Assembly (NCBI RefSeq): GCF_007692535.1
Contig: NZ_REBW01000252.1
Location: forward strand, 1-45,280
From: Thioalkalivibrio sp.
GTDB taxonomy: Bacteria > Pseudomonadota > Gammaproteobacteria > Ectothiorhodospirales > Ectothiorhodospiraceae
Length of the DNA: 45,280 bases
Direction of reading: 5' to 3'
A program made the position numbers and the translations under genes. The first letter of the stretch is position 1. Each line of letters begins with the position of its first letter. Shown piece after piece: positions 30,278-36,989 of this stretch. Under the pieces are notes generated by a model, which saw only the letters and a program-made list of their open reading frames with translations, searched no databases and was not told the origin of the DNA.

Positions 30278-30769
30278 TCAGGTCAGGTGCAAAAGCCAGC
30301 GCCTGCGGGCATCACGCAGGATGTGATAGACGACGGGCCACAGGAGCGCACTGGTCAGGATCGGGAGCCAGTAGAGGTTGCTGCCCGGAGGGAACCCGAT
30401 GGCTCCCTGGATCCAGATGTTGAGGAAACGTGTGAGTCCGACCAGAAAGGCCACGACCACGGCCTGTTGCCACAGGGGGTACACGCGCAAGCGCGGGTAG
30501 ATCTGGAGCACGATGAACATCGCCGCCGCCAACGCGAGTGCGTTCTGGCCCAGCAGTTGGTGCTGCAGCACGTCGAGGAACAGGCCTGCGAGAAAGGCCA
30601 CGAGGATGCCGACCCGCCGCGGGAAGGCCATGCCCCAGTAGACCAGCACCAGCAGTACCCACTCGGGGCGGGCGGTCGCGATGGCGCCGGGAAGCGGAAC
30701 GATGGTCAGGGCGAACGCGGCCAGCAGCGACAGCAGCACCGGGACGGGTATCACCATCCCCGGGTTCAC
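30278..30769 (-). CDS. mreD: Rod shape-determining protein MreD
   Basis: Small inner-membrane protein of 163 aa with about five membrane segments, part of the elongasome that guides lateral wall synthesis. The segment FLAGLFLDVLQHQLLGQNAL is the characteristic MreD stretch. GTG 30769 overlaps the mreC stop as GTGA; ATG 30757, with GGGAG 11 bases upstream, is an alternative. Its place after mreB and mreC confirms the call. Confidence 0.93.
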   Translation of the reverse strand: MNPGMVIPVPVLLSLLAAFALTIVPLPGAIATARPEWVLLVLVYWGMAFPRRVGILVAFLAGLFLDVLQHQLLGQNALALAAAMFIVLQIYPRLRVYPLWQQAVVVAFLVGLTRFLNIWIQGAIGFPPGSNLYWLPILTSALLWPVVYHILRDARRRWLLHLT

Positions 30770-31635
30770 TCCCGCCCATCCGGCTGTTCCTCCGCCCCTG
30801 GCTGCGGCGCGGGGGCATCGGTCCACAGCAGCAATGCCTCGCGCGAGCGGTCCAGGGCCGCCAGGGGTTCCGCCGCGATGACCAGGAACGGCTGACCCGG
30901 CAGGTGCTCGACCGAGACGATGCGTGCGACCGGGTAATCGGAGGGGAAGCGTCCGCCGAGGCCGGAGGTCAGCAGCAGATCGCCTTCCTCGATGTCCTCC
31001 TGTGGCGGCACGTGGCGCAGGTTCAGGCGCCGCGGGTTGCCGGAACCCACCGCCAGCGCGCGCAGGCCGGTGCGGGCCACGATCACGGGGAGGGCGTGTC
31101 CAGGATCCGAGATCAGCAGCGCGGTCGAGCTGGTCCAGTTCGGGGTCAGGATCTGGCCGATGACGCCGTCGGCGTTGATCAGGGGCTGACCCGCGTAAAC
31201 GCCGTCGAGTCGGCCCTTGTTGATCACGATCTGCTGGCGGAACGGGTCCAGATCCACCGCGAGGAGCTTGGCGATCTCCACCCTCTCCGTGGCCTGCGCC
31301 GAGGTATGCAGTAGCGCCCGCAACCGGTCGTTCTCCGCCTGCAGGGCATCGAAGCGCAGCTGCCGCGCGCGCAGCTCCATCAGGTCCGAGCGCAGCAGGC
31401 GATTTTCGAGCACGAGCTGTTCGTGGCGGGAGAAGGAGTCGAGAATCCGGCTGCCGACGCGGATCGGCGCGTCGACGGCCAACTGCAGCGGGTACGCGAC
31501 CGTGGCCAGGACGCTGCGCAGGGTCTGCAACTGGTAGAAGCGGTGGTCGAGTGCCATCAGGGCCAGGGCGATCAGAACCACGGCAAGCAGGCGTAGGATC
31601 GGCGACGCCCCGAGGCTGAACAGCGGCTTTTCGAT
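30766..31635 (-). CDS. mreC: Rod shape-determining protein MreC, with apparent AUC start
   Basis: Bitopic inner-membrane protein of 289 aa with a membrane segment (about residues 14-32), a coiled coil (about 60-105) and two periplasmic beta domains with LLAVDLDPFRQQIVINKG and ADGVIGQ. It links MreB to the wall synthases. The start is unusual. From the mreB stop to the membrane segment the frame has no ATG, GTG or TTG. The family's EKPLF-type N-terminus is preceded by ATC at 31635, six bases after a perfect GGAGGA (31647-31642). A CTG at 31623 is the only other near candidate. It overlaps mreD by four bases. Confidence 0.9.
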   Translation of the reverse strand: MEKPLFSLGASPILRLLAVVLIALALMALDHRFYQLQTLRSVLATVAYPLQLAVDAPIRVGSRILDSFSRHEQLVLENRLLRSDLMELRARQLRFDALQAENDRLRALLHTSAQATERVEIAKLLAVDLDPFRQQIVINKGRLDGVYAGQPLINADGVIGQILTPNWTSSTALLISDPGHALPVIVARTGLRALAVGSGNPRRLNLRHVPPQEDIEEGDLLLTSGLGGRFPSDYPVARIVSVEHLPGQPFLVIAAEPLAALDRSREALLLWTDAPAPQPGAEEQPDGRE

Positions 31636-31660
31636 GACAAGTCCTCCGGCAGGCGGGAGA

Positions 31661-36989
<5,329 letters not shown>

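Follow-up and report, generated by a model that had tools for sequence, protein, structure and literature searches.

AUC, AUU and AUA as probable initiation codons of the morphogene mreC across Gammaproteobacteria

IF3 destabilizes start complexes on AUC, AUU and AUA codons (AUH, collectively), a property that infC exploits for feedback. To our knowledge, very few bacterial genes start with AUU, AUC or AUA, and most of the reported cases that we know of are limited to one species or genus, infC being the widely shared one. The infC gene of E. coli and other bacteria and the mreC gene described here are alike in their conserved AUH start, in their good Shine-Dalgarno (SD) sequence and in being essential. 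They differ in their products. As infC makes IF3 itself, its AUU closes a feedback loop, whereas MreC is not known to take part in translation, and any effect of IF3 on mreC would therefore be one-way. The genome from which our mreC derives carries an infC (locus L309, contig C266) with an ATT AGC start and an SD, conserved in the genus; infC starts were read by reading frame, which could be done at 8 loci from the genus or the class. The pcnB gene of E. coli resembles mreC in being a non-translational gene, and its expression is limited by its AUU start (Binns and Masters 2002, cited in PMC1780047). It has been described from E. coli, a species whose own mreC starts with ATG and lacks the AUH trait, whereas that trait of mreC is seen in approximately 70 families. 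The sigR gene of Streptomyces shares with mreC a conserved non-canonical start, accompanied in sigR by an extended SD, and misannotation in genomes. It differs in its codon (GTC), in the gene concerned and in the phylum. Output from the GTC start of sigR goes up in IF3 fidelity mutants and down with extra IF3 (PMC5472188); repression by IF3 is demonstrated for sigR, whereas for mreC we infer it. The ccpN (AUA) and cvfC1 (AUU) genes of Staphylococcus likewise have conserved AUH starts with strong SDs, and the starts of ccpN/cvfC1 give about 10% of the AUG output in reporters (PMC13009471). These two are confined to Staphylococci, whereas mreC is an essential morphogene in which the trait extends across a whole class.

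The kind of feature is thus already known from infC, pcnB, sigR and ccpN; the case of mreC is unusually widespread, essential and outside the translation apparatus. Our literature search, which covered open-access papers only, found no earlier report of a non-canonical mreC start. With AUH in about 70 families, mreC would rank among the broadest cases.

The window analyzed is a stretch of 45,280 nucleotides from Thioalkalivibrio sp. (NZ_REBW01000252.1), which is contig C196 of a 3.1-Mb draft genome in 277 contigs. All of the features given here lie on its minus strand. The mreB gene (31661..32707; open reading frame and translation) starts with ATG and lies upstream in the operon. Its TAG stop (31661–31663) is separated by 25 nt from an ATC triplet (31633–31635) that aligns with Met1 of E. 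coli MreC. Counted from this AUC, mreC (30766..31635) has 289 codons and a stop, and its identity is given by its translation and by two profiles, TIGR00219 (179.8 bits for the MreC frame of the window, cut-off 92.75) and PF04085 (122.5 bits, cut-off 28). The downstream gene (30278..30769) is mreD by its open reading frame and operon position, the family having been assigned without a profile; it starts either at a GTG that overlaps the mreC stop (GTGA) or at an ATG at 30755–30757. A sequence-only reading of this DNA had proposed that mreC starts at AUC, on two grounds. The frame was said to hold no canonical start from the mreB stop to the membrane segment, and GGAGGA to stand six bases ahead of ATC, with E-K-P-L-F following. 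The window bears out both. From the mreB stop to the first MreC membrane segment, no ATG, GTG or TTG is in frame. GGAGGA (31642..31647) is placed 6 nt (CTTGTC) before the AUC, and the codons after it are GAA AAG CCG CTG TTC (E K P L F). The first canonical codon downstream is a GTG at 31579–31581, codon 19, within the membrane helix. The nearest in-frame canonical codons upstream are GTG, TTG and GTG (31723..31734), which are 30, 32 and 33 codons before the AUC and inside mreB. On comparison of this region with its relatives, the AUC at 31633–31635 is almost certainly the genuine start codon of mreC.

We surveyed the starts of mreC across Gammaproteobacteria with an 11-row MreC alignment as the query. 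The search covered 370 Gammaproteobacteria genomes, the family, and three sets of 30 genomes (lower-scoring families); short stretches or whole genes of the matching loci were examined, 257 mreC loci in total. An N-terminus of the type [start]-K-P-L/I-F, which in E. coli is MKPIF, was present in 205 of the 257. The codon at the position of E. coli Met1 in these motif loci was ATC in 110, ATT in 37, ATA in 19 and ATG in 20, with GTG in 2, TTG in 2 and other codons in the remaining 15. An AUH start is thus present in 70 families (166 of the 205 loci). The motif itself occurs in 105 families, 68 of them with AUH only and 21 with NTG only. The start-calling rule accepts ATN or NTG at two codon positions, and because of this it is biased towards finding a start. 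The upstream stops and the position of the SD are independent of the rule, and they agree with its calls. In 140 loci from 61 families, an in-frame stop lies upstream with no ATG, GTG or TTG between it and the AUH codon. With CTG excluded as well, 121 loci from 56 families have no upstream start, and in 29 loci (17 families) the upstream stop is within 3 codons of the AUH. The earlier proposal concerned one gene; on sequence comparison, the AUH start of mreC is class-wide. Where AUH is replaced, the replacement is mostly ATG at the same position. The three AUH codons interchange freely, and the mreC tree requires at least 15 changes between AUH and NTG, a repeated exchange. As to the choice of isoleucine codon, ATA is at codon 1 in 11 of 70 cases, compared to 76 of 558 inside the gene. 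Four loci outside the strict motif (L231, L262, L289 and L374) are also without any canonical start ahead of residue 12, and each has an AUH codon behind an SD. Separately, one genome (L206/L394) carries GTT at the position of the mreC start (GGAGG TTCGCC GTT AAA CTG CTG TTC), which may be another non-canonical start akin to the GTC/GTT of sigR.

The sequence-only reading had itself raised a duller account, a base-calling or assembly error in which the real codon is ATG, and the draft state of the genome speaks for it. We consider that this account can practically be dismissed. The check that had been suggested, conservation of ATC in close relatives, was run: 28 of the 29 same-genus loci have ATC and one has ATA. 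These loci come from separate assemblies, among them the single-contig (closed) genomes G010 and G012 and isolates such as ALJ3 and ALJ21, and AUH recurs in the 70 families of the survey. A start further upstream, at the GTG, TTG or GTG inside mreB, would make the isoleucine an internal residue. The frame is indeed open to that point in the window and in its closest relatives, yet the reading is very improbable. In 23 of the 29 same-genus loci an in-frame stop intervenes, with no ATG, GTG or TTG after it, and the codons inside mreB are for this reason not conserved as starts. Codons 2–17 evolve as coding sequence in these loci (pN 0.10, pS 0.35). In contrast, the 12 in-frame codons upstream of the AUC are not coding-like (pN 0.41, pS 0.46, stops in 16 of 29) and show no purifying selection. 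The GGAGG, which is invariant in 29 of 29 loci, is spaced for the AUC, and 61 families are without any upstream canonical start. The upstream stops, together with selection on codons 2–17 and its absence upstream, place the beginning of translation at the AUC or the adjoining codon. The adjoining codon, GTC at 31636–31638, was considered as a start, as sigR uses GTC, and was rejected: the codon just before the AUC is free to vary within the genus, where it is GTC, CTC, GCC, ACC, ACT or GTT. An out-of-frame TTG at 31638–31640 in combination with a frameshift was rejected also, as there is no NTG there in most of the genus.

Initiation from the downstream GTG (codon 19) is extremely improbable, even if this is the first canonical codon of the frame and a start of this type is annotated in a Pseudomonas aeruginosa record (CP123788.1) and used in published MreC numbering. 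Such a start would cut away KPLF-GPS, a conserved segment under purifying selection, and would leave some 12 hydrophobic residues to span the membrane. Across the 70 families, the first downstream canonical codon has its median at codon 17, within the membrane helix; its position varies, and a good SD precedes it in only 3 of the 70. One may also accept the AUC as the start and deny it a function, with AUH having drifted in and being tolerated thanks to a strong SD. The free interchange of AUC, AUU and AUA and the repeated exchange of AUH with NTG on the tree speak for this account, and it deserves some weight, but we judge it unlikely. One base change suffices to restore AUG, GUG or UUG, yet 68 of the 105 motif families have AUH only. 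An excess of MreC, moreover, is harmful in E. coli. We return to the reading in which the AUC is the start and has a function in setting MreC output.

The SD of mreC differs with the type of start codon. With one AUH locus taken per family, SD 4-mers cluster 9–14 nt 5′ of the AUH; the rest of the 60 nt is nearly devoid of them. A match of at least 4 bases to the SD is present in 56 of the 70 families, compared to 14–30 in windows shifted upstream. The median energy of the SD duplex is −7.4 kcal/mol for AUH starts and −3.0 kcal/mol for NTG starts (70 vs 24 family representatives; Mann-Whitney p about 1e-8, uncorrected for ancestry). A phylogenetically paired test of SD against start type gave no significance, with only 5 usable pairs on well-supported branches. 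In a larger set, the SD of NTG-start mreC was no stronger than in its own shifted windows. Lineages with an AUG start, E. coli included, are mostly without an SD at mreC; E. coli K-12 has an ATG start and an SD of −3.0. The pattern fits a scheme in which codon and SD would jointly hold MreC initiation in range. It also fits a simpler view, by which AUH codons may simply not function without a strong SD.

These observations lead us to the following mechanism. Initiator fMet-tRNA would read the AUC at 31633–31635, in keeping with a trait that the comparison shows to be conserved in gammaproteobacterial mreC, namely a first codon AUC, AUU or AUA preceded at 5–9 nt by a strong SD. The weak codon–anticodon pairing would reduce initiation of MreC relative to that of mreB on the same mRNA, while the strong SD would keep initiation sufficient for an essential protein. 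That the AUC throttles MreC in this manner we infer to be likely. As IF3 rejects start complexes on AUH, precedents suggest that a rise in IF3 should depress the synthesis of MreC, in the manner of infC. A tie of MreC dosage to IF3 had been suggested by the sequence-only reading, and it is plausible on the precedents of infC and sigR. In vitro, raised IF3 lowered the fMet products on AUU/CAU (PMC10158994), and in S. aureus reporters the AUU and AUA starts gave approximately 10% of the AUG output (PMC13009471). By analogy with these systems, the level of IF3 may matter physiologically for MreC, although we lean slightly against it. The selective reason is probably the dosage of MreC. In E. coli, extra MreC alters the shape of the cell and extra MreD relieves the shape defect (PMC7793260). 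Estimates for E. coli, where the start is AUG, put MreC at approximately double the level of PBP2 or MreD (PMC8137920). With MreC estimated above MreD and PBP2 in this organism, MreC may be "low" only in comparison with MreB. The explanation as a whole, an AUC start with throttled initiation balanced by a strong SD, probable proofreading by IF3 and a dosage motive, we consider highly probable. The AUH start of mreC would link the fidelity of initiation to the dosage of MreC and to cell shape in a directly testable way.

A broader proposal is offered tentatively, and with some doubt. The mreC gene might belong, throughout the class, to the few genes policed by IF3. Gammaproteobacteria might curb MreC by AUH, which would tie the elongation of the cell wall to the state of translation initiation, and the lineages reverted to AUG (Enterobacterales, Pasteurellaceae, Alteromonadaceae, Aeromonas) might curb it by loss of the SD or by a terminator-like hairpin before mreC. 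Hairpins of this kind, followed by a T-rich run, were seen directly before the mreC ATG in Alteromonadaceae and Aeromonas (L054, L056, L057, L063, L064, L069, L100 and L406). Judged from its sequence, such a hairpin would lower transcription of mreC after mreB. Terminator-like hairpins precede mreC in 0 of 78 AUH and 7 of 39 NTG representatives; the latter count drops to 2 of 25 with Alteromonadaceae counted once, which makes the contrast only a lead.

The mreC gene would be misannotated wherever gene finders permit only NTG, and one P. aeruginosa record documents this. In CP123788.1 (L404), the mreB–mreC junction reads TAG GAG CGG ATC ATC AAA CCG CTA TTC. The in-frame TAG rules out any canonical start ahead of the KPLF segment in P. 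aeruginosa, and the TAGGAG is spaced for the second ATC. Initiation at the AUH in Pseudomonas and Thioalkalivibrio would give proteins that include the segment MIKPLFSKGPSLGVR or MEKPLFSLGASPILR. The annotated start of mreC in the record is a GTG 16 codons after the ATC, inside the membrane helix (region 216–267). Numbering of P. aeruginosa MreC from this GTG yields Glu188 and Arg190, and the first 14 residues are then VLAVLSVSLMVVDA. A structural paper on P. aeruginosa MreC names Glu188 and Arg190 and describes the first 14 amino acids as cytoplasmic residues and membrane segment (PMC8137920). The match in both residues and in the 14-residue segment indicates that the published numbering takes the GTG of the truncated frame as residue 1; the AUC start seems to have gone unrecognized there. 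CP123788.1 itself is a 1131-base record that was filed as a plasmid. It contains only the end of mreB and a part of mreC, and is thus probably a chromosomal fragment.
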